From a virus, in IMG/VR virus record IMGVR_UViG_3300031576_000015, positions 1 through 29,995 of that record: 29,995 bases of DNA; one strand, written 5' to 3'. Positions 2,754-22,699 of the stretch are shown piece by piece (positions within the stretch are counted from its first letter, which is position 1; the number at the start of each line of letters is the position of its first letter). The translations under genes and the position numbers were made by a program. The notes beneath the pieces were generated by a model. It saw nothing but the letters and a program-made list of their open reading frames with translations, had not been told where the DNA came from and searched no databases.

Positions 2754-2957
2754 TCAGAGGTCGAGTCTCCACGACTGATATCCCCCTACTGGCAAAATGA
2801 TCTGGCCCATTCCTGCCACGGCCCCATTCTTGTAAATCAAATGCACTTGCATAGATACCGTCGATTCGTGCTTGTCGCCACCGCGTCCGTGGTTAAAGGC
2901 TGTTACTTGGATGGCTATCGGTGACCCCGGGCCCCCCGGTCCCGCCAGCCGACGCAT
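2754..2957 (-). CDS. Hypothetical protein, 67 aa, overlapping recA end
   Basis: A 67-residue protein of unknown family. It starts at an ATG with GGAGG five bases upstream, inside the glycine/serine-rich 3' end of the RecA-like gene, giving a 65-base overlap. After a flexible GPGGPGSP segment it shows beta-strand-like blocks (PIAIQVTAFNHG, STVSMQVHLIYKNG, GQIILPVGGYQSW), suggesting a small all-beta fold. The part beyond the RecA stop has no competing frame on this strand and reads like real protein. I considered a longer frame starting at 3179, but it lies wholly inside recA. Confidence 0.55.
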   Translation of the reverse strand: MRRLAGPGGPGSPIAIQVTAFNHGRGGDKHESTVSMQVHLIYKNGAVAGMGQIILPVGGYQSWRLDL

Positions 2958-3789
2958 CGCTACCTCCGCTTCCAGATCCGTCAGATGGATAGAGGATGTC
3001 GAACGTGGCTTCAGCAAAGGGACGAGCGCCGTCGTATTTCGCCTTAGCCACTCGTGCCAGCGCGACATGTCCAACCTTTTGGTCCCCTTTCTTGATGAAC
3101 TCCTTGCGACGCACCTCCAACCGCAGGACCGACTCGTGCTTGGACTTATGGCCCATTGGTTCGGTTGTCGCAGGACCATACATGACCCCTATATTATCAC
3201 GAACCTGGTTAGTGAACACAAAGGCCGGTTTGCCCAGCGCCAGCGCAGACTTGATGCGCTTTAGGCCCGCATTCCATAGCCGGACCTCCGGCGAGAATCC
3301 ACTAATGTTTACCTGCTTCTCAAGGTCGTCCTTGCTGACAATGGACGCTGCTGAATCAAACACGACAAGGTCCACATCCTGTTTAATCAGAGAGATCGCA
3401 ATGTCCAGGGCCTCCTCCCCGAACTCCGGGGTACTTATGAGAAGCCGGTCCATGTCCACTCCCAATGTCCGGGCAAAACCTGGCGAGAACGAAACCTCAG
3501 TGTCTATGAAGGCTGCTACCCCACCATCTGCCTGGGTACGAGCGATAGCATTCAGGGCCAAGAAGGTCTTTCCCCCAGACCACGGGCCGAAAAATTCAGT
3601 GATGTGTCCTCTGGGTATTCCTCCCCCTAGGATCTCATCCACGGCCGGCAGGCCGGTGGGGAGGAAGGACACAGTGTAGAGCTCCTCAACGTCACCGGCC
3701 ACTGCCAGCGCACGGGTTCCGTGCTTCTTCTGGATGATGTCCAGCAGTTCCTGCAGTGTCTGCGGGCTGCGCTTCTTCGCCTTCGCCAT
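2893..3789 (-). CDS. RecA/UvsX-like recombinase
   Basis: A 298-residue RecA-superfamily ATPase that would coat single-stranded DNA and catalyse strand exchange for recombination-dependent replication or repair. The Walker A motif is GPWSGGKT (68-75), the strand AAFIDTE (about 92-98) carries the catalytic glutamate, and Walker B is LVVFD (141-145). A segment FVFTNQVRDNIGVMYG corresponds to the RecA region with conserved N, Q and R before DNA-binding loop 2. The canonical GPESSGKT is altered, with W replacing E and G replacing S. It is shorter than bacterial RecA (about 350 residues), lacks the full C-terminal domain and ends in a flexible Gly/Ser tail. Its ATG shares one base with the upstream stop. 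Confidence 0.88.
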   Translation of the reverse strand: MAKAKKRSPQTLQELLDIIQKKHGTRALAVAGDVEELYTVSFLPTGLPAVDEILGGGIPRGHITEFFGPWSGGKTFLALNAIARTQADGGVAAFIDTEVSFSPGFARTLGVDMDRLLISTPEFGEEALDIAISLIKQDVDLVVFDSAASIVSKDDLEKQVNISGFSPEVRLWNAGLKRIKSALALGKPAFVFTNQVRDNIGVMYGPATTEPMGHKSKHESVLRLEVRRKEFIKKGDQKVGHVALARVAKAKYDGARPFAEATFDILYPSDGSGSGGSDASAGGTGGPGVTDSHPSNSL

Positions 3790-8523: not shown

Positions 8524-9117
8524 ATGAAAGCAACAGATGCTTTTGTCAAGGAGGACGAGCGCAAGGCCCGAGTGGTTGCTCAGGGAGACCGTCCACGGGT
8601 AAAGATTCCCTGGTTCAAGCTTGACGTAAATCAAAGTTCCAAGGTTCGGTTCCTGTGGGAGCTGACCGACGGTATTGGGCTGTTCCGGCACAGCCGTAAT
8701 GAGAAACCCTTTGCCGTGAGCTGTTTCCAGAACGAGGAGTATGTTGGCGACTCTGCTGGTGGGGACTGCCCGTTCTGTACTGAAGGTGCCCGCAAGTCTG
8801 TCGAGTTCTTCTGGATGGTGTACAACTACACCACCCAGCAGGTTGAGATCCTGTCGTTCCGAGACACAGCCTACACTCCAGTGGGTCTGCTTCGTTCCTT
8901 CTTCGAGGAGAACCAGACTGTGACCGACCGAGACTTCACGATCCGGCGCGTCCCGGCTGCTTCGCGTACCGGAGACGGCCGACAGGTATCGTCCTACATG
9001 GCCATCCCCAATGCCCCGTCCGGATTTCTGGTGACAAATCTCCAGGTGCCTGGGTCCGATGACCTGATCAACTACCTGCGGCCGTTTGAGCTTGGTCGTG
9101 GAGAGGGAAAGAACTAA
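8524..9117 (+). CDS. gp32-like single-stranded DNA-binding protein
   Basis: A 197-residue protein resembling phage single-stranded DNA-binding proteins of the T4 gp32 type. A beta-rich core carries KVRFLWELTDGIGLFRHS and a zinc site made of H56, C67, C82 and C85 (GDCPFCTEG), comparable with the His-Cys-Cys-Cys zinc site of gp32. The protein would coat unwound DNA and work with the polymerase/helicase fusion and the RecA-like recombinase. gp32 is longer (about 300 residues) and has an acidic C-terminal tail; here the tail is short and less acidic. It starts at an ATG with GGAGG eight bases or so upstream and is followed by a tightly packed small zinc-knuckle gene. Confidence 0.65.
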   Translation: MKATDAFVKEDERKARVVAQGDRPRVKIPWFKLDVNQSSKVRFLWELTDGIGLFRHSRNEKPFAVSCFQNEEYVGDSAGGDCPFCTEGARKSVEFFWMVYNYTTQQVEILSFRDTAYTPVGLLRSFFEENQTVTDRDFTIRRVPAASRTGDGRQVSSYMAIPNAPSGFLVTNLQVPGSDDLINYLRPFELGRGEGKN

Positions 9118-9281: not shown

Positions 9282-9497
9282 ATGGTCACACCTGTTCAAT
9301 TTAACTTGTATCACGAGGCTGCCGCCGAAGCACGGCGGCGTACTGAGGCAGGTAACCCTTATCATGTCACTACTTTGCACTCGATAGATTCGTATTGGTA
9401 CGAACTGAAAGAGGGGCCAGATCCATATGCTTGGTCCTATCCAGATAAAGGTCGTCCGTTGGCCAAACAACGTCCGAAGGGAGGAAGTAATGTCTGA
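9282..9497 (+). CDS. Hypothetical protein, 71 aa
   Basis: A 71-residue protein of unknown family starting MVTPVQFNLYHEAAAEARRR. It has an amphipathic helix in the first third and an aromatic-rich segment (SIDSYWYELKEGPDPYAW), with a basic C-terminus. The ATG comes five bases after the previous stop, with no clear ribosome binding site, so coupled translation is likely. It ends in an eight-base overlap with the next gene. Composition and packing support coding, but nothing identifies its function. Confidence 0.5.
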   Translation: MVTPVQFNLYHEAAAEARRRTEAGNPYHVTTLHSIDSYWYELKEGPDPYAWSYPDKGRPLAKQRPKGGSNV

Positions 9498-9651
9498 TGC
9501 AGCGTCGGCTCATGAGTGGAGGGCCTTCATTGAAGGACGTTTCGGTAAGAAAAAGCCTATCCACATGACTGTGGAGGAAATCTCTCTAGTAGTCATGGTT
9601 GACATTCTTGAGGTGCTGGAAGGTATAGCGGCAGCACGTAAGGAGAACTAA
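9490..9651 (+). CDS. Small helical protein, 53 aa
   Basis: A 53-residue protein starting MSDAASAHEWRAFIEGRFGK and continuing with a leucine/valine-rich helix (EEISLVVMVDILEVLEGIAA). The start has GGAGG five bases upstream and overlaps the previous gene's end. Its own TAA shares a base with the ATG of the large replication fusion, so translation of this gene probably feeds ribosomes into that gene. The helix could mediate dimerisation or be a binding partner of the polymerase. No family is recognised. Confidence 0.6.
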   Translation: MSDAASAHEWRAFIEGRFGKKKPIHMTVEEISLVVMVDILEVLEGIAAARKEN

Positions 9652-12600
9652 TGGCTAGTTGCCCAATTCACCCTGGTTGCCATGCGTATGTGCCGTGGAA
9701 CGGGCCGGAGACAGCCCGTCTTGCCGTAATAGGCGAGGGCCCCGGGGCGCAGGAATTCCAGACCGGCCGACCGTTTGTCGGCCCTGCTGGGCATGTACTC
9801 GATACCGAGCTGGCCCGGGTAGGAATTCCTCGCTCCGAGGTCTTCGCCTACAATGCTGTGCCATGTTTTGGCAACACTATCCCGCGTACCCCTACGGAGA
9901 AAGATCTGAAGGTTTGGCGGCAACACCTCCTGGATAAGCTAATCGAGGTGAAGCCAGAGGTGATCCTCGCCGTTGGCGGGTGGGCGACGGGCGCCATTAT
10001 TGGCAAGCGTCGTATCACAACTGAGCAAGGGGCCGAGCGACGGGTACGACTGGCTCCCGACTACGAGCCTTGGGTCATGCCGTGCTTTCATCCGGCGGCA
10101 ACCCTCCACGACCCAAACAAGAAGCCCGACTTCATCAAGACAATTACCCGTACTGAACAGCTGCTCAATGGTAAGATCGTAGAGTGGTACGCGGGATACA
10201 AGATAGTTGATGATACCACCATTGCCGAGGCCGTGTCCGATCTGTCTGACACGGTTCTGTCCGTAGACATAGAGAGTGCTAAGAGCGAGGTTGTGGTAGT
10301 GGGTCTGGGTAATCCAGGCAGGCCTATTTGGGTCTTCCCAGTTGGGCACCCAGAAGTTGATCCTGCGGTCCAGGCACGGCTTCGTGCCGCTGTTCGTGGC
10401 ATTTTCGATGCTACCATGCGGGATGGAATCCGGGTGATGCACAATGGCAAATACGACACGCAGGCCCTAAAGGCAGAGGGCCTGATGTCTATGGCCGACC
10501 GGGGAGTTGATTGGGATGGGGTGTTGGTGGGCCATCTTCTGGATGAGACACGGGCGGACAAGGGGCGGTTGAAGCTGAAAGTCTTGGGGCAGGAGCTGTT
10601 CGGGATCCAACGGTATTGGACTGTCCCAATCTCGACCATGCACACCGTACAGCAGGGCAAGAAGACCGTTACGAAGCTCGTAGAGGTGCCATTGGATGCT
10701 ATGCTCCGCACTGGTCGGGCACGGGAAGTGCCTCTGGAGACCCTGGCGGAATACAATGCCCGAGATGTGGCCCTGACCCTCATGGTCAAGGATGCCTTTG
10801 ATAAGGACTTTCTGGCCGACCAAAAGTTGGTACGTCTGTACCAGAAGCTGGTTCTGCCGGCGTACCATGCCATGGAGCCTATCGAGAGGGCAGGCCTGCC
10901 TACGGATATGCCGACTTTGCAGAAGTTGGAAGTTGACTACGCTACTGATCTTGCCGGTATTGATGCCGAATTGAACCAGATGTTCTCTGGCGAGGTCAGC
11001 AATTGGAACTCCGACGCCCAGCTTCGCAAGCTGCTATTTGATAAGCTGGGGCTACCCGTTGTCCGGCGCACCACCATCGAAAACGAACCTTCGGTAGATG
11101 TGTCCTCTCTCATGCTACTGAAGGGGAATCACCCCGTCATCGACCTGTTGCTCCGTCGGTCAGAGGCGGACAAGCGGGTGACCACGGTCCAGACCTTGAA
11201 AGACCATATCGCGCCCGATGGTCGCATCCACCCTACCTTCGTAGTGGCCGGCCCTTCGACCGGGCGAACTTCGTCCCGTGACCCGAACGTACAGAATATA
11301 CCTCGGGGGAAGGGCATCCGGGACATCATCCGGGCGCGGCCAGGCTACAAGCTGGTGGAGCTGGACTTCAGTCTCATCGAGCTCCGGTGGGGAGCCCATG
11401 TTTACAATGAGCCGAAGCTGAAGTCCCTGCTCCAACAGGGCAAGGACTTGCACCGCTACACAGCATCGTTGGCCTATGGCAAGCCGATGGATGCCATTTC
11501 TTCTTCGGAGCGTACCCACGGAAAGACGGCCAACTTTCTTCTACTGTACGGTGGTGGCCCGGATAAGCTGTCCACCCATTTGCGGGATAACGGCGTTACC
11601 GAGCTGGAGGCACAGCAGGCTCTGGTGGCTATGGGTCAGATGGCTAATTCTGAAGACCCTATCTATTTCCTGGCCCTGGCGCTGTGGAAGGCGTTCCACC
11701 GGGCCTACCCGGCGCTGAAACCGGCACATGAGATGATCACAAGAGAGATCCGGCGCAACAAGACAGTGCGTACCCTGTTTGGACGGGTCCGTCGTCTACC
11801 TGGGATTGATTCAGCCAATCGCAAGGAAGCGATCCATGCTGCTCTGTCAGGTATCAACACCCTTGTACAGGGACCGGCCAGTGATACGATGCTATTGGCC
11901 TTACCCGGCCTAGTGGAGATGGCACCAAAGTATGGTGCCCTCATTGTGGACGTTGTACATGATGCCGTCCTAGCCGAAGTACCAGAGGACCAGGTCATAC
12001 CCTTCGCCAAGCACGCGAAGCAGATCCTGGAAACCCCCGACTTCGCCCAGTTCGATGTCACCTTTGACATCCCAATTCTGGTCGATGCCAAGGTTGGTCA
12101 TTCGTGGGGATCTCTGAAGGACTTAAGGGAGGAAAGTGAAGTGCCGCAAACATACGAAGTACAAGGCCCTACGGCCACCCCGGACCCGAAGGTTTTGCCA
12201 GAGGCGCCTGTGGAAGTAGAGCAAGCTCTCGAACCCTTCGCTGCGGCTCTGGCTTACCAGGCGCGTGGCTGGTCTGTCATCCAGCTCACGGCCCCAGGGC
12301 AGGGATTCCAGGCCGGAGGAAAGGCCCCGGCCATCAACTGGGAACCCTACCAGCATCGGCATGCCACCATACAGGAGATCCAAGCATGGTTCGGTAAGAG
12401 GGGTGATGGTGGTAATGCCGTACCCCATTCAAAGAATGGCAAGCACAACATTGGCATCGTTACGGGGTCCGTCTCGAAGCTAGTGGTCATTGACATCGAC
12501 CCGAAGAAGGGCGGACTGGACTGGTTGAAGGAGAAGAACCTCACGTCGCCTGCCACAGTACGAACTGGCGGCGACGGTCTGCATCTTTATTTCCACTATG

Positions 12601-13907
12601 AGGGGCCGCCCCTGACTAACCGAGCGGGAATGGCGCCGGGTGTGGACATAAGGGCCGAGGGCGGGCAAGTGGCCGCGCCGCCGAGCCTGCACCAGTCGGG
12701 CAAGCGGTACGTCTGGCTGACCCCGGATGGGCTATTGCCGGCAGAACTGCCGGAGCTGCCGGTGTGGTTGGCCGAGGAAATCAAGACTCGGGCCAACGTG
12801 CAGGCGGTCCCGATATCGGGCGAGGGCCGTAACATCCCGCCGGCGCGTATCGACGAGGTGGTGGATCAACTACTGCCCTACTACGTCGAAGGTCGGCGCC
12901 ACGACATGCAACTGGCCCTGGCCGGGTTTCTGGCCAAGCGCAACTACCAGATGGCCGACGTGGAGGATTTGGTGATTCGGCTGGCCAATGCGGCTGAGGA
13001 CACCGGTGAACTCAACGACCGTCTGATGGTTGTGCGGGATACCTATCGGAAGGTGACGGTTGGCGAGACCGTTGCTGGGAGTGACAAGCTGCGGGACTAC
13101 CTGCCAGCCGATGCACTGGACCGGCTCCTCGAGCTGTTTGGTTCTCTTAGGAAGGTGGGCGTTATCGAGGTTATGCACGGCCCAGATTTCGTTGCGAAGA
13201 AGCGGGAAGAGGTGAGCTGGCTCATTGATAAGCTGCTTCCAACGGCCGGTATTTGGATGATGTCAGGCCACCCTGGGGCCGGCAAGACGACCCTGGCTCT
13301 GCAGTTTGCCTTCAGTCTGGCCGCCGGTATGGACCTATGGGGATTGTACGCGGTCCCGAAGGCTGTGAAGGTGTTGTATCTCCAGGCCGACAACCCGCCC
13401 CACATGTTCGAGGACCTGGTTCGTCGGTTGTCACAGCGGATGCCAGGGGCCCTGGCCAACATGTACTTCTCCAATGTCACCAAGTCCATCAAAGTCAACA
13501 CTGAGCAGGGCTATGAAACTATGCGCCAGCTGGTTGAGCTGTATACCCCGGACATGATCCTTCTTGACACCATCCGGGATTTCCATAGTGCTAACGAAAA
13601 CGACCCCACGGCCGTGGCGGAAACATTGGATGCCTTGAAGTCGATCCGGGGTAACCGGTCGATCTCCGTCGGGTTCATCCATCACCACTCTAAGGGATCG
13701 GCTACTGAACGCATGCAGATAGAGAAGCACATGGGATCGATGCGGTTCGTCACCCCGGTGGACCTATCCATGTCCCTGACCTTCGATGAGAAGGAGATGG
13801 GCTATGTCATCCTACGGTTCACCAAGATTCGATGGGCGGCTGGGCAGCAGCCCGTAACTCTGCAACGGAGGGACAACTGGTACGAACACGTTGGCGGGGG
13901 TGTGTAA
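9651..13907 (+). CDS. UDG-exonuclease-DNA polymerase A-PrimPol-helicase fusion
   Basis: A 1418-residue replication protein. Residues 1-170 resemble family 4/5 uracil-DNA glycosylase: GEGPG (28-32), GRPFVGPAG (39-47), NAVPC (68-72), HPAA (147-150). Residues 200-390 form a DnaQ-type 3'-5' exonuclease: D205-x-E207, HNGKYD (D269), Y368-x3-D372. Residues 400-825 form family A polymerase: motif A DFSLIELR (572-579), motif B R621-x3-K625-x3-F629-x3-YG, motif C HD (770-771). Residues 860-1030 form an archaeo-eukaryotic-type prim-pol: DIDP (948-951), TGGDGLH (972-978), GVDIR (997-1001). A primase-C-type helical linker follows. Residues 1175-1418 form a RepA/RecA-like ATPase: GHPGAGKTT (1206-1214), ILLD Walker B (D1306). 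No 5'-3' exonuclease is present. Individual domain pairs occur in phages; the full five-part set on one chain is the notable point. Confidence 0.9.
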   Translation: MASCPIHPGCHAYVPWNGPETARLAVIGEGPGAQEFQTGRPFVGPAGHVLDTELARVGIPRSEVFAYNAVPCFGNTIPRTPTEKDLKVWRQHLLDKLIEVKPEVILAVGGWATGAIIGKRRITTEQGAERRVRLAPDYEPWVMPCFHPAATLHDPNKKPDFIKTITRTEQLLNGKIVEWYAGYKIVDDTTIAEAVSDLSDTVLSVDIESAKSEVVVVGLGNPGRPIWVFPVGHPEVDPAVQARLRAAVRGIFDATMRDGIRVMHNGKYDTQALKAEGLMSMADRGVDWDGVLVGHLLDETRADKGRLKLKVLGQELFGIQRYWTVPISTMHTVQQGKKTVTKLVEVPLDAMLRTGRAREVPLETLAEYNARDVALTLMVKDAFDKDFLADQKLVRLYQKLVLPAYHAMEPIERAGLPTDMPTLQKLEVDYATDLAGIDAELNQMFSGEVSNWNSDAQLRKLLFDKLGLPVVRRTTIENEPSVDVSSLMLLKGNHPVIDLLLRRSEADKRVTTVQTLKDHIAPDGRIHPTFVVAGPSTGRTSSRDPNVQNIPRGKGIRDIIRARPGYKLVELDFSLIELRWGAHVYNEPKLKSLLQQGKDLHRYTASLAYGKPMDAISSSERTHGKTANFLLLYGGGPDKLSTHLRDNGVTELEAQQALVAMGQMANSEDPIYFLALALWKAFHRAYPALKPAHEMITREIRRNKTVRTLFGRVRRLPGIDSANRKEAIHAALSGINTLVQGPASDTMLLALPGLVEMAPKYGALIVDVVHDAVLAEVPEDQVIPFAKHAKQILETPDFAQFDVTFDIPILVDAKVGHSWGSLKDLREESEVPQTYEVQGPTATPDPKVLPEAPVEVEQALEPFAAALAYQARGWSVIQLTAPGQGFQAGGKAPAINWEPYQHRHATIQEIQAWFGKRGDGGNAVPHSKNGKHNIGIVTGSVSKLVVIDIDPKKGGLDWLKEKNLTSPATVRTGGDGLHLYFHYEGPPLTNRAGMAPGVDIRAEGGQVAAPPSLHQSGKRYVWLTPDGLLPAELPELPVWLAEEIKTRANVQAVPISGEGRNIPPARIDEVVDQLLPYYVEGRRHDMQLALAGFLAKRNYQMADVEDLVIRLANAAEDTGELNDRLMVVRDTYRKVTVGETVAGSDKLRDYLPADALDRLLELFGSLRKVGVIEVMHGPDFVAKKREEVSWLIDKLLPTAGIWMMSGHPGAGKTTLALQFAFSLAAGMDLWGLYAVPKAVKVLYLQADNPPHMFEDLVRRLSQRMPGALANMYFSNVTKSIKVNTEQGYETMRQLVELYTPDMILLDTIRDFHSANENDPTAVAETLDALKSIRGNRSISVGFIHHHSKGSATERMQIEKHMGSMRFVTPVDLSMSLTFDEKEMGYVILRFTKIRWAAGQQPVTLQRRDNWYEHVGGGV
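12128..12143 (+). promoter_or_regulatory. Internal ribosome binding site and GTG at the polymerase/primase junction
   Basis: Within the fusion gene, GGAGG (12128-12132, inside AAGGGAGG) lies eight bases before an in-frame GTG at 12141, which encodes V831. This is exactly where the polymerase domain ends (its last conserved block is VGHSWGSLKDL) and the linker to the prim-pol begins. It could start a separate 588-residue primase-helicase, or it could be a relic of a formerly separate gene. Confidence 0.6.
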
Positions 13908-14942: not shown

Positions 14943-15806
14943 TTACTCTGTAAGGAAGGGCTGGTACTCTTTTGGTAGGGCCGCCTTTACCTGTGGACTC
15001 AGGAAGGGCAGCATCTTGATTAGCATTGCAATCCGATCGGCCTTGGGATCAGCTATCATCTGTGGTAGCAGGGAAGCCATGGAGACGGCCGGCATCTCTG
15101 TTTTGGGGAGTGGGAAGCTGGGTAGGCCTGGTGCCGGTGGGGCTTGCCCACCCGGGGCTGTCGTATTACCCCTGAGTTGGGGTGGCATGGTTGCCGGTGG
15201 CAAGTCTGCCGGTATGTTGGCCGGAGATCCCCATGGCGGCAGCCCGTATCGTTGCCGTGCTCCTCTGATTAGTTCTGCCTCTGTACGTGTTCTTCCAGTC
15301 AGCCCTTCGTTAGCCATACCTGCCATGCGCATTATGCCAGCAACATACTTTTGGGTCCCGGCGTACGGTGGGATGCCCTTGTACCGCTTCACAGTCGCAC
15401 CACCGGCGTTATATCCGGCTAGGGCCAATTCCCAGCTACCCAGGTTCTTGTATAGGGCGGCCATGTGTTGCGCGGCCCAATCTAGGGACTGCTCCGGGTT
15501 GGTCGGGTCCACTTCCCGGCGCCATAGGGGCATGATTTGAGCGATGCCCACTTCCCCATCCTTGCCACGGGCTGTCGGGTTGAAGCCGCTCTCCCACTGG
15601 ATCTGGGCGACAAACAGTTGCTCTGGTACGCCATAACGACGAGCGGCCTCACGGGCCTTTTGGGCGTAGTACGCTCGACCATCACGGCTGGGCGGAGCAC
15701 CAACATGCGTGGTCTGTGGGGCGTTTGGCACACGAGCCTGCGTCGATAGCTTGGGGCCCCCAAATGGGGCGGGGCTAGGGACCTGGGGTGGGGTGAGTGC
15801 GGCCAT
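14943..15806 (-). CDS. Virion-associated lytic transglycosylase
   Basis: A 287-residue protein with a soluble lytic transglycosylase (SLT) domain at residues about 45-150. The catalytic glutamate is E72 in IQWESGFNP, followed by GEVGIAQIMP and the closing motif LALAGYNAG (127-135). Such enzymes cleave the glycan strands of peptidoglycan to let phage DNA through the wall. There is no signal peptide, and the first 40 residues and the region 170-250 are proline-rich and flexible, as in virion-carried enzymes. The ATG overlaps the stop of the giant polyvalent protein, so the two are made together and probably enter the particle together. Confidence 0.88.
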   Translation of the reverse strand: MAALTPPQVPSPAPFGGPKLSTQARVPNAPQTTHVGAPPSRDGRAYYAQKAREAARRYGVPEQLFVAQIQWESGFNPTARGKDGEVGIAQIMPLWRREVDPTNPEQSLDWAAQHMAALYKNLGSWELALAGYNAGGATVKRYKGIPPYAGTQKYVAGIMRMAGMANEGLTGRTRTEAELIRGARQRYGLPPWGSPANIPADLPPATMPPQLRGNTTAPGGQAPPAPGLPSFPLPKTEMPAVSMASLLPQMIADPKADRIAMLIKMLPFLSPQVKAALPKEYQPFLTE

Positions 15807-18800
15807 TAGTATAGTCTCGACTTTCTCCTCTTCTTTACTGGGAGCTCAAGACCCGGCTCAACCCGTTCCAACTCTGGGAAGACGCCCGGTCGTAGCTCGG
15901 TTGGTACCTGTCTAGCTGCTCTCTCAAGTAGGGTTCGTTCCCATTGCTCCTGCTCGCGAGCAAAGTCCTTGGCATCAAGTCCAAGCTCCGCTCCCTGGGC
16001 GGCGATGTCCATAGCCTTTTCGTAATCGCCCTTGTTCCAGGCTTGCAGGTAGTCCAACCGAAGTTTATTGGCCTTGCGTGTGTACCAGCTGATAACCTGG
16101 CCCCGTGGTCCGTAGCGTTCATATGTCTCCCCGGCCAATGACTCTTCCGGCAATCGGCCACCGATAGCCTTCAGGATGGTTTTGTAGCCCCTGAAGGGAT
16201 CCTCAGACAGGTCTATGGTCATAGCTCCTTCCTTAGTGGGGGAGCGAAGCTGGCCTGGCTCGACATAGCCACTTTCCTCTATGATGGGTAGGGGTATGGG
16301 TAGCTGTTCGCCACCAATCTGTAGCAGCTGTGGGGTCTTACCGGTGTGGCTCTTGACGGAGTAGTAAATGGACCACAGCTGCACTGGGGCCAGGGCCTTC
16401 CAGAGGGCATCGGCGTGGATTTCGTCTCGGTGGTAGAAGAAGTCTGATATGGCCACCCGCAGATCGTTGAATAGGCCGGCCCACACGCTGAAAGCACGGG
16501 CTGCCTTGCCGACTGCTACATCAGGCTGCAAAGCCACCATGGCAGCATTTTCGAAATCCACGGTTAGACCGATGCGCTGGGACAAATCTAGGCCGAGTAC
16601 CGAGCCGATACCACGTAATGGCACATCTCCAAAGCGGCCCAGCTCTGGCTTGAGGCGCTTGAGCTCGTCTAGGAACGAGAAACCCAGGCCGGTTTGTGGA
16701 TCCTTCTTCCAGTGCTCGAAGACGAACTTGTCCATCATTTCGACGGCCGGGATGCCGAGTAGGCCGGTGAAGGCGGTGCTGACAATCAGAAAGCGGGATA
16801 GCTCTTTCCAGTATGGATCGTACCTCTGTACAGCTGATCGTGGCTGTACCAGGTCTGTGATGAAGTTGACCTCGTGGAGGAAATACGGCTTAAACTGTAA
16901 CAAGAACCGGACGAATGGGTTGCGAAACATGGCGGGCAGGGCCTCTATACCATAACGGAACTGGGTGCGGTCAACAGCCCACTTCTTGGCGAACTCTATG
17001 GACTTTTCGTGGGACCACCCGCGATCCAGGCCCTTAGCATAGCCACCGAAGGCGGCTGTGGCTCGGTTGATCTTCTCTGCAGTGTTGAACATCGATAGAA
17101 TGAACATACTGACTTTGCGGCCCTTATAGTACCCGTCAATGGCCCACTTGGGTATATATAGATCGACATCCATGGCCTTGGCCAAAGTATCCAGACGCAC
17201 ACCCTTGTAGGTAGCATGTGGATTCATCATAGATTCCGTGGTTAGCTTTATGCCCGTGAAGGTATGGTTGCCTAGGACTGGGTAGGTGTTGATGGCAGTC
17301 TGAGTCAGATTGACCAGGGCGGACATGGGGTTGCCCAGCTTCCATAGACTCATCAAGCGGGAAGCCTGTTGCAATACCTTGCGCGTGTACCAGCCATGGG
17401 ACCCGCCATAGAAGTAGACCAGATTGTCGATGGACTGCTCAGTAGCAGATGGCCGGCTTGTATCGATAGCACCGGCCCACTCTTCCATATACTTATAGGC
17501 CTGGTAGAGACGGCGGTTGTGCTGTGGACCGGGTTTTAGCTCGGGCAGGGCCCGAACCTGGTCCAAAATGAGATTGGCATCCTTGCGGAAGGAGTTCCCT
17601 TCGATACCAACTGTGAGGGCACGAATGTAGGTATTCAGAGCGTCTACCGGATTCTTGACGTAGCTGCTCAGGAACAGCTTGCGGGGCTGCAATGGACCGA
17701 TGAATCTTTTCTTGGGTGCAATGCCCAGTTCCCCGGACTCTAGTAGAGCCTTCCATACTGTAGCTGAGGATAGGCGGAGCCCAGGGCCGGCAGTGAAACC
17801 CCAGGCCGCGTAGTGTGACTGGGCAGCGGCTGTGACTTCCTTGGATAATGCCTTGGATAGGTGACCCAGGGCCTTGGCCGATAGCCAGTGTTGTATCTCG
17901 CCCGGCAGGTTGGTACGTGGGAAGATGGTGATACCATCATCTGCTAGGATCTTTTGGACGGCCGCCGGTCCTTGGGTTCTGTAGATCTCCCGTAGGGACA
18001 CGGGGCCCCAGTTGGCATTATTCATGATATGCTGCAGGGCCTCCTGGAAGGTGTCGAAGAACTCCATAGAGGTTCGGTCCTGTGCGGTGGCTAGTCTGTG
18101 GTTATAAGCTGCCCACTCCCCACGGAAGTTGTGTGGGAAATAGTCCGGACGATAGTTGGGATTGACCTTGTTGAATGGCTGATGGAAGGTCTGATTGCTG
18201 ACCCAATTGGTCTTGCCCGGAACCGGGATCATACCTTCCAGCTCTACCATGCCATTGGATAGATAACGCTTGACTAGATACTTTTCGGTACGTCCGAAGA
18301 AGTCACGGGAAATGACTGAGTTCTGGGTGGCCTTGGTGCCGTTATATTCCGCTGCCCAATCCAATAGCCGACGTATATCGTTAGCTACTATCTGTAGGGT
18401 CGGCGGCAGCGTAGGAATGGCTAGACGTCCCTCGGAGGCAGCCACGATCTGTTGCTGCTGGGCATCCGGTAGATGGCCGATGAGTCGGTTCACCTGCTCG
18501 CGGAAATCGATGGAGTGCCGCATCTTCTCGTTGGTGAAGACAACTCCACGGTCCAACAAAGCAGGTAATAAGTCCTTAGCGAATTGGATGATATTCCCTG
18601 TTGTCAGGGTAATCGGCTTGGGAAGCTGGCCGGTTGTGGTTTCGGCCGGACCAACACGGGACCAATGTTCGGGTAGACGAGTCCACCAGGCTGTAACATC
18701 GCTGATCGCATCAGCCAAACTGATCCGTGGGCGTCCGATAGACTTCTCCACCAATTCGGCGGCAGGATCATCGGGGCCGCTGAAGCGTATGAAACCGCCC

Positions 18801-21800
18801 TGGTTTTTGAGTATATCCCGTATCCGCTGCGCCAACTCATCGAAGAACTGGGAACGCTCGGGATCGCGGACTGGGCCGAAGATCGGATCCTTCAGAGCCT
18901 CGGCTATTTCCACAGCCTCACCTGTGAGCTTGGCGGTCTCTCCGACTCCCTTATCGGCTATTGTCTCGTAGACGCCCCGGCGGAGTAGGGAGGCCTCTTT
19001 CTCAAGGACACGAACAGCATGGTCCATCATTCGTAGGGCAGTTTTGTTGTCTAGTTCGGATCGAACCGACGACATAGCGCCCATAAGCTGGTCCATTCGG
19101 TGGAGTAACCAGTCGCGCCGGTCGTCGCCAAATTTGGCAACGTTGGCCTTCTCGCGCTCAATGAAGTTGGTCAGCCCGCGCTCGAAGTATTGGGCGGACC
19201 CTGCGATCAGGCGTTCCACCTGTGGGGAGGCCGCCGCTTCCCGTAGTGCAGGACTAGTCAGGCTACCCCCGACAGCCCGGAGGTGTGCTTCCTGGCCAGG
19301 CACGGTATACCAGCGGTTGAACAGGCCCTGTATGTGCTTGAACAGGCCCTGTATGTGCTTGGCCAGACCGGCCTCAGTGGGCTCGATTGGGGAGAAGACG
19401 AAGTCAATGGCGGCTCGTGCCCTCTCGCTTTCGCGTTCTAGCATGACGACCACAGGATTTCTGGTCGGTGTAGTCTGGGACATGGCCTGCTTCAAGAATG
19501 CAATGGAGGCATTAATCTCCTCCTCCATCATTTGCAGACGTCCCTTATCTGGAGTTTTCTTGATGGCTGCACGAACTTGAGATAGGCGCCTCTGGGCATC
19601 TGCCAGAGCCTTAGCTATAACGTCAATTTTGATTTCTGGAGCTGTGTATTCCAGTAAGGGACCAATCTTCTCTAATCTGGCGGCTAGGGATGGGAAGATT
19701 TCCTGCAGGCTGCGCTTCTCGAAGTCGGCAGCCTTCATTTCCACAGCCTCGGTCAGGGCGGCTTCTAGCTGTGCCACGAGTGCTTGGTTGCCCTCCGCTC
19801 GGGCCTGGGTGAGTTGCTTGTTGAATTCCTTCAGAACCCGCTCGCGGACGAAGGCTCCCTTTTCAGCCTGGAATGGGGCACCAAGTAGGGTCTTGGCCTG
19901 CGCCTCGAATTCTGTGGGTGAGAGGGTCCGTAGTTGTTCCATCCTCTCTACGGTACCAACCACGGTTCGGCCGATGCGACGGGGCTCCCCAATGATCAGT
20001 CTGGTGTCCTGGGCTACCCGACGGATTTGGTGTAGCAGGTCAATGGGGTCACCGCCATATTCGGTACCGGCTCGCTGTGCCAGGATACCTAGTGCTCGTC
20101 GGCGGTAGCCGGTTACTCCAGCACCGCCTGGGTAGAAGTAGGCCAGCCCCTTCTCAGCAGCTGCGAAGATTTCCTCTAGCATCTGTCGCGCTTCGGCGGC
20201 CACTTCTGTCTCTCGAACGCGGGCCTTAGCCGGGTCCTTGAGGAGAGCGACTTCTTTCTTGTGTGGGTAGGTGTGTAGATTATCTATGGCATGTCGCTGT
20301 ACAGCCTGGATCATGGCTTCGCGATCAGGACGCAGAGCCTCCAGGGCAGACCGGTTATCATAGACAACCTCCCCCTCGCCAATCAGGGATGGTCGTGCAG
20401 TTCTATAACCCTCCGGGAATAGACGCTTTTCGAGACCGGCCCCCATGCGTTGGTTGAGGATGTAGTTGGGCTGACGACGGGCGATGTCCCATACCTCTCC
20501 ACGGGGTGGATCGTCGAAGCGATTCTCTGCGTTGCGTATAAAGCCTAGAATAGAGTTATGAAGTCGTTCGCGGGTGAGTGGGCCTTTTGGACCAGGCAGG
20601 CCAGACAGATTGATGTAGAAGGAAGACAGGCCACGTTGTGGGGAGTAATAGGGCACAGTGACCCGTACTGGCAATCGGCCACCCTGCTGGATGATCTTCT
20701 CCACAACTCGGTTGGCTACTGTACGGTAGAGTCTATCAATTTCCAGTAATGTCTTAGCCCCTTCCTTGTAGTACACCAGATCTACTATCTGGCTCTTCAT
20801 GCCGGCAGCAGCCTCTGGTGTTCGCTCGAGCAGCTTGGCCAGGGCATTGCTAAGCTCCTCCCCTATGATCTCGGGGTTGGCGGCGGCCCGCTCGGAAATG
20901 TCGTCCAGGGTGGCTAAGAATGCTTCGGCTTGTGGTTTGTTATACTGCTCGAACACCATCTTGCGGATTTCGCGTTGCTGGCCGGCCCTCAACACGAATG
21001 GGCCCTCTGGGGATGCGGATTGACGCAGGAAGCCGGCGCGGCCCAATAGATCATCAATGCGTCGAATACCTACTCCTTCGATCCCGGTTAGCGGGATGCG
21101 CTTGCGCCGTAGGACTTCTAGGAAACGAATGTAATCCGGGTAACGGGTATTCTGCCACAAATGGGCCATGTCCTCGAACTTCATTCGCCCACGCAGTTCC
21201 TTGGTGAGCTGGGCGGCAATGCCGTTGATGCCGGCCTCCTCGGCCATACGGTAGTCATCGAGCCCGATGCCACCTAGCAGGTTGTAGAAGTAGTTGGTCT
21301 CGTTTGCCAAGCGAGCCGCTGGTGCGTTAGGATCCAATCCGCGTAGTCGGGAGAAAATGTCTCGGCCTACATCGCCCGTGTGTGTCAGTAGCTTGGCGAC
21401 CTCGGCATCCCCAATAGTCTTGTCAGGAGAGACTAATTGGAATTGCTCAGGAACGGAAACGCGGATAGCTGGCAGGGTCACCTGTAGTGGGAAGTAGCCA
21501 CGTACCTCACCTGGCGTGAAGGTCTTCTCACGTACGAGACCTGTCTTGGTGCGACGGGAGCCAAAGTCCCATCTGATGCGACCAAACTCCGACCGCAGCT
21601 TGCTCTTGTTAAATTGGCCAGATGTGTCCACGATCTTGATGTATGATTGGCCACGCTCCGGACTGATCCAGTCGAACTCGATCTTGGGAGAGATGGCTGC
21701 CGGGCCCTGCTCCAGCTCGAGCTTGTTCTTCTGCTCGGACAGACTGCCCAGGATGCGCTGCTGCTTCTTGATGTAAGCCTGTAGCTTGGCACGCTCGTCC

Positions 21801-22699
21801 GCGTCCACCTTGGTCAGCACGCCTGGCTGCTTAACGCTGGTATATTGGCCGGCCTTAAGGGCCCGCTCGGCCCATGTGCGTAGGCCGACAGCCTTCTGGA
21901 TCTTGGCGTTGATGGCAGCCACAGCGGTGTTGTAGGCTTCTGTACCGCCGCCTACAGATGCGGTAGCCTGCTGTCTGGCTTGGGCGGCCTCGATTTCGGT
22001 TGATAGACGTGCAAACTGCTCCTTCAGCTCGGAATCGGCCATGGGTGGGGGCGATACCTTCTTGGGCGGAGCCACGCGTTCCTGTACCGTGGCAACTGCC
22101 TTCTCAAGAGCCATGGTCACTGGCTCTTTCTCGGCAGCAATGGCTGGGATGGCGGCCGCCTCAACCTCACGGGCAACGAGTCTGGTAGCTGTCTCCTTAT
22201 CGGGGTGGACAATGGCAACGTCACGTCCGCCCAGTACCTCCTCGACAACGCGCTTGGAGACTGGCCACTTCAGTCCACCTTGACCGGTGCCGATGCGGGG
22301 CAGCACAATTCTCTTGATGCTACCGGCGTCCATGCGATCACGAATGGCCAGCAATCCCTTCTTCATGAGATCCGGATCGGCTACTTCCTTTCCGACGGGC
22401 ACGGTTGGGAAGAGTACGATGCGTTCCTCGTTAGCAAAGGCTATTTCTGGGGCGCCTGGCTTAGTGTATCGCTCGTGCAAGGATGGCGCCCTCTCGATGG
22501 CCTGCTTATAAACACCAGTACCCACACGCCGGTCTTGGTGTGTGGGTACGCCGATCCAAGTGTCTGGTTCCTTCCAACGGGCCCAAAGATCCCCTACATA
22601 TTTTTGGAGGATCTCCGGTACTTCCCGTATCTTAAGGAGACGTGGGCGGATTTGGGCCAACTTTGCGAGCTGGCTGGATGGGATCTTGAAGCTAGGCAT
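15806..22699 (-). CDS. Giant polyvalent/ejection-type protein with N-terminal macro domain
   Basis: A 2297-residue protein. Residues about 45-160 resemble a macro domain (ADP-ribose-binding, Poa1p-like): GVYKQAIERAPSL, RIVLFPTVPVG, and the signature IVLPRIGTGQGGLKWP (131-146). Residues 220-300 and several later segments are helical or coiled coil. The rest is long and mostly helical, with blocks like those of large polyvalent phage proteins: YRPDYFPHNFRG near residue 1525, NPMSALVNLTQTAINTYPVL near 1790, and FRNPFVRFLLQFKPYFLHEV near 1925. Such proteins are thought to be packed in the head and injected with the genome. No polymerase DxDGD or protease motif was found. The macro domain suggests ADP-ribose removal in the infected cell, which is inference. 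Confidence 0.75.
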   Translation of the reverse strand: MPSFKIPSSQLAKLAQIRPRLLKIREVPEILQKYVGDLWARWKEPDTWIGVPTHQDRRVGTGVYKQAIERAPSLHERYTKPGAPEIAFANEERIVLFPTVPVGKEVADPDLMKKGLLAIRDRMDAGSIKRIVLPRIGTGQGGLKWPVSKRVVEEVLGGRDVAIVHPDKETATRLVAREVEAAAIPAIAAEKEPVTMALEKAVATVQERVAPPKKVSPPPMADSELKEQFARLSTEIEAAQARQQATASVGGGTEAYNTAVAAINAKIQKAVGLRTWAERALKAGQYTSVKQPGVLTKVDADERAKLQAYIKKQQRILGSLSEQKNKLELEQGPAAISPKIEFDWISPERGQSYIKIVDTSGQFNKSKLRSEFGRIRWDFGSRRTKTGLVREKTFTPGEVRGYFPLQVTLPAIRVSVPEQFQLVSPDKTIGDAEVAKLLTHTGDVGRDIFSRLRGLDPNAPAARLANETNYFYNLLGGIGLDDYRMAEEAGINGIAAQLTKELRGRMKFEDMAHLWQNTRYPDYIRFLEVLRRKRIPLTGIEGVGIRRIDDLLGRAGFLRQSASPEGPFVLRAGQQREIRKMVFEQYNKPQAEAFLATLDDISERAAANPEIIGEELSNALAKLLERTPEAAAGMKSQIVDLVYYKEGAKTLLEIDRLYRTVANRVVEKIIQQGGRLPVRVTVPYYSPQRGLSSFYINLSGLPGPKGPLTRERLHNSILGFIRNAENRFDDPPRGEVWDIARRQPNYILNQRMGAGLEKRLFPEGYRTARPSLIGEGEVVYDNRSALEALRPDREAMIQAVQRHAIDNLHTYPHKKEVALLKDPAKARVRETEVAAEARQMLEEIFAAAEKGLAYFYPGGAGVTGYRRRALGILAQRAGTEYGGDPIDLLHQIRRVAQDTRLIIGEPRRIGRTVVGTVERMEQLRTLSPTEFEAQAKTLLGAPFQAEKGAFVRERVLKEFNKQLTQARAEGNQALVAQLEAALTEAVEMKAADFEKRSLQEIFPSLAARLEKIGPLLEYTAPEIKIDVIAKALADAQRRLSQVRAAIKKTPDKGRLQMMEEEINASIAFLKQAMSQTTPTRNPVVVMLERESERARAAIDFVFSPIEPTEAGLAKHIQGLFKHIQGLFNRWYTVPGQEAHLRAVGGSLTSPALREAAASPQVERLIAGSAQYFERGLTNFIEREKANVAKFGDDRRDWLLHRMDQLMGAMSSVRSELDNKTALRMMDHAVRVLEKEASLLRRGVYETIADKGVGETAKLTGEAVEIAEALKDPIFGPVRDPERSQFFDELAQRIRDILKNQGGFIRFSGPDDPAAELVEKSIGRPRISLADAISDVTAWWTRLPEHWSRVGPAETTTGQLPKPITLTTGNIIQFAKDLLPALLDRGVVFTNEKMRHSIDFREQVNRLIGHLPDAQQQQIVAASEGRLAIPTLPPTLQIVANDIRRLLDWAAEYNGTKATQNSVISRDFFGRTEKYLVKRYLSNGMVELEGMIPVPGKTNWVSNQTFHQPFNKVNPNYRPDYFPHNFRGEWAAYNHRLATAQDRTSMEFFDTFQEALQHIMNNANWGPVSLREIYRTQGPAAVQKILADDGITIFPRTNLPGEIQHWLSAKALGHLSKALSKEVTAAAQSHYAAWGFTAGPGLRLSSATVWKALLESGELGIAPKKRFIGPLQPRKLFLSSYVKNPVDALNTYIRALTVGIEGNSFRKDANLILDQVRALPELKPGPQHNRRLYQAYKYMEEWAGAIDTSRPSATEQSIDNLVYFYGGSHGWYTRKVLQQASRLMSLWKLGNPMSALVNLTQTAINTYPVLGNHTFTGIKLTTESMMNPHATYKGVRLDTLAKAMDVDLYIPKWAIDGYYKGRKVSMFILSMFNTAEKINRATAAFGGYAKGLDRGWSHEKSIEFAKKWAVDRTQFRYGIEALPAMFRNPFVRFLLQFKPYFLHEVNFITDLVQPRSAVQRYDPYWKELSRFLIVSTAFTGLLGIPAVEMMDKFVFEHWKKDPQTGLGFSFLDELKRLKPELGRFGDVPLRGIGSVLGLDLSQRIGLTVDFENAAMVALQPDVAVGKAARAFSVWAGLFNDLRVAISDFFYHRDEIHADALWKALAPVQLWSIYYSVKSHTGKTPQLLQIGGEQLPIPLPIIEESGYVEPGQLRSPTKEGAMTIDLSEDPFRGYKTILKAIGGRLPEESLAGETYERYGPRGQVISWYTRKANKLRLDYLQAWNKGDYEKAMDIAAQGAELGLDAKDFAREQEQWERTLLERAARQVPTELRPGVFPELERVEPGLELPVKKRRKSRLY
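19320..19361. repeat. Perfect 21-bp tandem duplication within the giant protein gene
   Basis: A 21-base unit beginning AACAGGCCCTG occurs twice head to tail at 19320-19340 and 19341-19361 with no mismatch. In the protein it repeats seven residues (KHIQGLF) near residue 1115, preserving the frame. It looks like a recent slippage duplication in a helical region. Confidence 0.9.

Follow-up and report, generated by a model that had tools for sequence, protein, structure and literature searches.

Can one phage gene encode most of a replisome on a single chain, and would its product then act as one protein or as several? This question is raised by a 29,995-nucleotide stretch of viral DNA, referred to here as the window (positions 1 to 29,995 of IMG/VR record IMGVR_UViG_3300031576_000015), in which a preliminary description made from sequence alone had noticed motifs for uracil-DNA glycosylase (UDG), exonuclease, family A polymerase (PolA), PrimPol and a helicase-type ATPase within one frame. 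The complete record spans 94 kb and is that of a tailed phage, as its major head protein, portal and terminase large subunit genes indicate.

A single frame encodes five replication domains

The frame occupies 9651-13907 of the plus strand, comprises 1418 codons without a stop and begins at an ATG with AAGGAG upstream. All four of its Pfam matches (UDG, DNA_pol_A, Prim-Pol and AAA_25) exceed their curated cut-offs and lie in that order, and the match to phrog_17, annotated 'DNA polymerase', covers residues 19-830 with an E-value of 5e-123, the exonuclease included. Together with the RepA matches, these strong E-values bear out the claim of five domains in one uninterrupted frame, and the domain search of all 1418 residues that the preliminary description had called for matched the UDG, exonuclease, PolA, PrimPol and RepA-type ATPase alike. 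The resulting features are given below, where L002 denotes a second viral contig.

9651..13907, plus strand: fused replication gene, 1418 aa, UDG - 3'-5' exonuclease - PolA - PrimPol - RepA-type helicase ATPase (open frame, Pfam, PHROGs, L002 architecture)
9699..10142, plus strand: uracil-DNA glycosylase domain, residues 17-164 (Pfam PF03167, 4e-21; 1ui0 alignment; column counts)
10236..10820, plus strand: DEDD 3'-5' exonuclease domain, residues 196-390, with D206, E208, D269, Y368 and D372 (phrog_17, NCBIfam exo/pol models, Klenow fold match)
10821..12119, plus strand: family A DNA polymerase domain, residues 391-823, with D572, E577, R621, K625, F629, H770 and D771 (PF00476, AlphaFold, fold matches)
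12120..12233, plus strand: poorly conserved polymerase-primase linker, residues 824-861 (29.7% identity to L002, 24 gap columns)
12246..12767, plus strand: PrimPol (archaeo-eukaryotic primase, AEP) domain, residues 866-1039, with D948, D950, H978 and D999 (Pfam PF09250, 9e-30)
12786..13190, plus strand: helical middle region between PrimPol and ATPase, residues 1046-1180 (modelled helices)
13188..13700, plus strand: RepA/RSF1010-type helicase ATPase, residues 1180-1350 (Pfam AAA_25, 4e-28; PDB 1g8y; Foldseek)

Structure prediction, likewise called for, gave a Klenow-like N-terminal half and a C-terminal half that matches RepA. The AlphaFold model of residues 1-830 has a pLDDT of 91 and Klenow as its top fold match, and the model of the C-terminal half is weaker, with a pLDDT of 72.

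The exonuclease, polymerase, primase and ATPase domains retain their catalytic residues

Residues of the exonuclease, polymerase and PrimPol active sites and of the Walker motifs are all present and, by alignment columns, conserved in relatives. The acidic residues of the exonuclease are kept in 40 of 40 relatives and Y368 in 39; the preliminary description had placed D269 and D372 correctly, but its D205 and E207 were off by one and are D206 and E208. PF00476 (DNA_pol_A) matches residues 422-657 and a second stretch (3e-69; 234 bits against a cut-off of 34.3), the model of the polymerase half matches the Klenow, Bst and Taq folds, and motifs A, B and C and the DEDD residues are intact, as in a family A polymerase with 3'-5' exonuclease. 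An aminoadenine-type DpoZ polymerase was rejected at 50.6 bits against a cut-off of 500. Separately, we note that the solved structure nearest to a UDG-PolA type chain is PDB 9qhs_A (1142 aa, titled 'Putative DNA-directed DNA polymerase I'), whose residues 15-105 are UDG-like.

The primase domain scores 104.7 bits against PF09250 (cut-off 22.8) and holds the DxD, H and D residues, with D948, D950, H978 and D999 kept in 29 of 29 aligned proteins. Its predicted identity as a PrimPol rests on Pfam: the profile match to pRN1 ORF904 is weak (E 0.2), and the best 50 Foldseek matches to the C-terminal-half model contain no PrimPol. The helical middle region (1046-1180) has no family match. The ATPase carries Walker A at G1206-T1213, Walker B at D1306, and H1344 and H1345. 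RSF1010 RepA (1g8y) is the only match of the C-terminal half among PDB sequences (7e-12) and RepA also provides the best Foldseek matches (TMt 0.74-0.78), so that a RecA-like fold, Walker A and B motifs and nearest similarity to RepA place the domain in the RepA/RSF1010 type. The earlier view that the catalytic residues are intact thus holds for polymerase D572, H770 and D771, PrimPol D948, D950 and H978, and the Walker residues. In one PrimPol-helicase relative, L095:6001-8372, 492 matched residues are spread over 2372 bases, which suggests inserted DNA, for example an intein or an intron.

The UDG domain keeps its active-site residues and has lost two iron-sulfur cysteines

The UDG domain, for which no residue had previously been listed, scores 76 bits against PF03167 (cut-off 24.3). 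Alignment with 1ui0 and column counts show that its active-site set, E29, E35, F42, N68 and H147, is kept, and these positions match Thermus UDGa residues that we take to matter for activity. By superfamily domain and by this E/E/F/N/H set the domain is a family 4 UDG; by the four 4Fe-4S cysteines and the curated family 4 score it is not, since two of the four cysteines are left (C4 and C72) and TIGR00758 gives 91.8 bits, below its cut-off of 125.3. The CxxC pair lacks its first cysteine, and the fourth ligand, which 38 of 40 aligned proteins have as cysteine, is replaced by W89 in the window protein and in its L002 counterpart. C10 and C145 are common to these two proteins and might stand in for the lost cysteines. 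Assignment to UdgX was rejected, the TIGR03914 score being far below its cut-off and the sequence being without a KRRIH-like loop. The domain may, on this residue pattern, be active, bind DNA only or be decaying. The earlier label 'uracil-screening' goes too far: with only half of the Fe-S cysteines left, excision of uracil is unproven.

A second virus carries the same fusion

Could the frame have been produced by an assembly chimera or a sequencing error that joined two genes? The record is a metagenomic assembly, which leaves room for such an origin. The independent IMG/VR contig L002, however, encodes all five domains as one frame too, at 62-65% identity, and we regard a chimera as largely refuted by this contig and very unlikely. 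In L002 the junction is in frame with different nucleotides and a linker (824-861) of different length, both viruses share the order of a single-strand DNA-binding protein (SSB) gene and a small gene upstream, and the GC level is even along the fused gene. The L002 frame reaches the contig end at the residue matching 1380, 38 residues short of the window protein's C-terminus. The catalytic domains of the two proteins are 60-68% identical, against 58% for the helical middle region and 30% for the linker. The preliminary description was right that the frame is unbroken and its domains genuine, and a second virus keeps this frame at similar identity.

The fused and unfused modules differ widely in abundance in the collections searched

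We judged rarity within the collections searched, namely IMG/VR viral contigs, INPHARED, genome contigs and plasmids. Among viral contigs, queries made from the full protein, its C-terminal half and alignments found L002 as the only further case of this architecture. Two genome-contig scans and the plasmid search returned no further five-domain case. INPHARED contains 4131 records that match some part of the fused protein, the best of them the polymerase half, and none covers 80% of it in one place. Among the fetched loci, 129 ORFs encode UDG-exonuclease-PolA and lack the C-terminal modules, and another 81 encode PrimPol-RepA with no polymerase attached; the modules are joined only in the window and L002, overlapping copies of those two set aside. 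No description of the UDG-exonuclease-PolA-PrimPol-RepA set and order was found in the open-access literature, and the earlier statement that all five were not known together is matched by our searches, in which L002 alone joins the window. The fusion of five domains in this gene is genuine and apparently rare.

The unfused relatives point to its origin. A separate PrimPol or RepA-type helicase gene lies within about 5 kb of the polymerase at 19 of 135 viral PolA loci, and at 16 of the 67 loci that extend 5 kb or more to each side; the primase part of these neighbours varies between PF09250 PrimPol, RepB-type and Toprim. In L059 and L221 the helicase gene lies downstream of the polymerase gene, on its strand and separated from it by small genes, and in MW202795 the two genes overlap in reverse order. 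In the PolA tree the fused pair forms a clade (support 1.0) beside L057 and L058 (0.91), each of which has a separate PrimPol-RepA gene. The RepA tree places the pair with L058 (0.14) and the PrimPol tree with L041 (0.79), so that the trees give only a hint of origin because the sister group is not firmly resolved. Presumably the fusion joined two genes of one replication module, one for UDG-exonuclease-PolA and one for the PrimPol-RepA helicase.

Other variants of the UDG-PolA gene were seen among these loci. It is present as two ORFs in L061 (5926-8925; split inside the polymerase, about 460 bases between) and in L199 (5884-8406; split at the exonuclease/polymerase boundary), possibly through insertion, intron or frameshift. 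In the INPHARED matches H4, H30, H31, H34 and H35 (Pseudomonas and Serratia phages) it adjoins a dCMP/cytidine deaminase gene; the deaminase would increase dUMP, which may tie it functionally to the UDG domain.

The polymerase-primase junction contains a candidate internal start

12127..12143, plus strand: GGGAGG at 12127-12132, a candidate internal ribosome-binding site, with GTG 12141 (V831) in frame (Shine-Dalgarno pairing, shuffles)

Shine-Dalgarno (SD) pairing at this site is the strongest among the 102 in-frame starts of the fused gene and exceeds that at the gene's own start; in L002, too, the strongest of 95 in-frame starts lies at the PolA/PrimPol boundary. When codons were shuffled synonymously with genome codon usage, the linker reached such values with P = 0.015 in the window and 0.014 in L002, and of the 681 in-frame starts inside 33 genes of the record, 3 have pairing as strong, the junction site among them. 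The junction SD overlaps Glu-Glu codons, which are SD-like DNA on their own, and we treat it as moderate evidence because these codons contribute. The site would be either a relic of an earlier gene start or a working start, and we hold it evenly balanced whether initiation at GTG 12141 yields a separate 588-aa PrimPol-helicase besides the full-length chain. 'One chain', as the product was first described, is right for the intact frame, but the candidate SD-GTG could add a second protein.

The surrounding genes include further replication functions

8524..9117, plus strand: single-strand DNA-binding protein gene upstream of the fused gene (phrog_14578, 7e-7; blastp; synteny)
9490..9651, plus strand: small gene between the SSB gene and the fused gene (own SD, AAGGGAGGA, as at the internal junction site)
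2893..3789, minus strand: RecA/UvsX-type recombinase (Pfam RecA, 5e-60; phrog_97)

The SSB gene has a counterpart in the same place in L002, 65% identical, and is accompanied in both viruses by a related small gene; the longer ORF at 9427-9651 has no family match. L002 also has a RecA-type gene on the other strand, as a related ORF. The 94-kb record, which may be incomplete, contains no other PolA, UDG or PrimPol, no DnaB and no Toprim_2 primase, and its PF09250 matches are confined to the fused gene. It also encodes RuvC, exonuclease-like genes, an ATP-dependent DNA ligase (record 70622-71464, L008:7622-8464) and a Ku-like DNA-end-binding protein (record 83657-84541, L009:4657-5541), the last two possibly a phage end-joining pair. 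Given the adjoining SSB gene and the RecA, ligase and nuclease genes in other places, the fused chain need not be self-sufficient; the domains for a 'self-priming, self-unwinding' polymerase are present, as had been claimed, in a phage that carries further replication genes.

Elsewhere in the window, 15806-22699 on the minus strand encodes a 2297-aa protein whose N-terminal stretch is phosphatase-like and which otherwise has no clear family. Its gene adjoins a lytic transglycosylase gene, and several large proteins nearby have no PHROG match.

The fused gene is a probable replicative core

We consider it probable, from domain content and context, that the fused gene is the replicative core of this tailed phage and arose by merger of two replication-module genes. 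In the scheme that we infer for all of its activities, the hexamer, the order of events and the short product, the RepA-type domain would form a hexameric ring and unwind the fork, the PrimPol domain would lay primers on the exposed strand, and the tethered PolA and exonuclease would extend and proofread them; the UDG domain would inspect for or remove uracil, or now only bind DNA, and the separately encoded SSB would coat single strands. Because six full-length chains per ring would mean six polymerases, we hold the short form from GTG 12141, and with it mixed rings, to be about as likely as not. A further-reaching reading, to which we give rather less than even odds, is a replisome core in which the one gene yields both full-length UDG-PolA-PrimPol-helicase and short PrimPol-helicase, which form mixed rings with polymerases tethered to the fork. 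A model for such rings is T7 gp4A/4B, made from gene 4 with an internal start, in which the polymerase is not built in.

The fusion might nonetheless exist at the level of the gene only, with protease cutting of the linker or mostly internal initiation producing a normal UDG-PolA and a normal PrimPol-helicase. Variation of linker 824-861 in sequence and length, the strong candidate SD-GTG at the linker in both viruses, and the processing of the apicoplast protein PREX to a separate polymerase (PMC7689252, PMC8113025) all fit this reading, which we judge unlikely though by no means negligible: the junction stays open in two viruses that are 62-65% identical, when one stop would unlink the genes, and internal initiation adds a short form but leaves the long one. 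A role in repair or recombination rather than as main replicase (uracil repair, lesion bypass, or action with the Ku-like protein and ligase) seems to us improbable. The Ku-like protein, ATP-dependent ligase, RecA and RuvC of the record are compatible with such a role, and some AEPs serve end joining or damage tolerance (PMC5862659), but the fused protein is the sole detectable PolA and PrimPol in a record in which no DnaB was found, the SSB gene is adjacent, and the pairing of PrimPol with a RepA-type helicase is characteristic of replication modules (PMC5862659).

Should the chain act as a replicative core, as its domains suggest, unwinding, priming, synthesis and proofreading would be covalently coupled, and fork stoichiometry and coupling would be open to study with one gene plus SSB. 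The junction, with its unfused counterparts and candidate internal ribosome-binding site, would then illustrate the passage from a two-gene module to one protein. For isothermal DNA amplification the product is a candidate enzyme that would prime and unwind on its own.

Comparison with known replication proteins

Each half of the protein has known counterparts. UDG-exonuclease-PolA fusions occur in phages, for example PaBG DNA polymerase I (PMC7412058), and correspond to PHROG 17; they share the domain order of residues 1-830, and none was found to run on into PrimPol and helicase. The window protein also differs in the loss of two Fe-S cysteines, of which the one at W89 is kept in 38 of 40 aligned proteins. 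PrimPol-helicase proteins of phages and plasmids, such as the PrimPol-PV1 families (PMC5862659), pRN1 ORF904 and NrS-1 polymerase, in which PrimPol and a hexameric helicase share one chain (PMC7102993), resemble the fused protein in joining an AEP primase, a helical region and a ring-type helicase. They have no UDG-exonuclease-PolA attached, and the NrS-1 helicase is of the SF3/AAA+ type where ours is of the RepA type.

Single-chain replisome proteins also have precedents. The Pyrovirus/TOSV 3173 PolA polyprotein combines a DUF927 helicase with exo-PolA, two parts that some of these viruses join and their relatives encode apart (PMC7689252); its helicase is N-terminal, and no PF09250 PrimPol or UDG is described. 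Caudoviricetes ctEqG8 (MW202795, L010) encodes exo-PolA and a RepA-type helicase, the latter weakly similar to AEPs, in overlapping genes which, unlike the fused gene, are in separate frames with the helicase gene first and no UDG. Apicoplast PREX is a single chain that holds primase, helicase, 3'-5' exonuclease and family A polymerase (PMC8113025) and from which the polymerase is processed. In PREX, a protein of a eukaryotic organelle that has no UDG and is cut into parts, primase and helicase precede the polymerase; in the fused protein they follow it. The PREX primase is DnaG-like, makes RNA primers and is unrelated to the AEP primase of the fused protein. Because the order is reversed and the primase is an AEP, the fused protein is, by its domains, not a member of the PREX type, though it is one that would work like it. 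Given PREX and, in part, the Pyrovirus polyproteins, 'a new replication design', as first proposed, is an overstatement: the parts are combined and ordered anew. The novelty lies in the series UDG-exonuclease-PolA-PrimPol-RepA, in which the polymerase comes before the primase-helicase.
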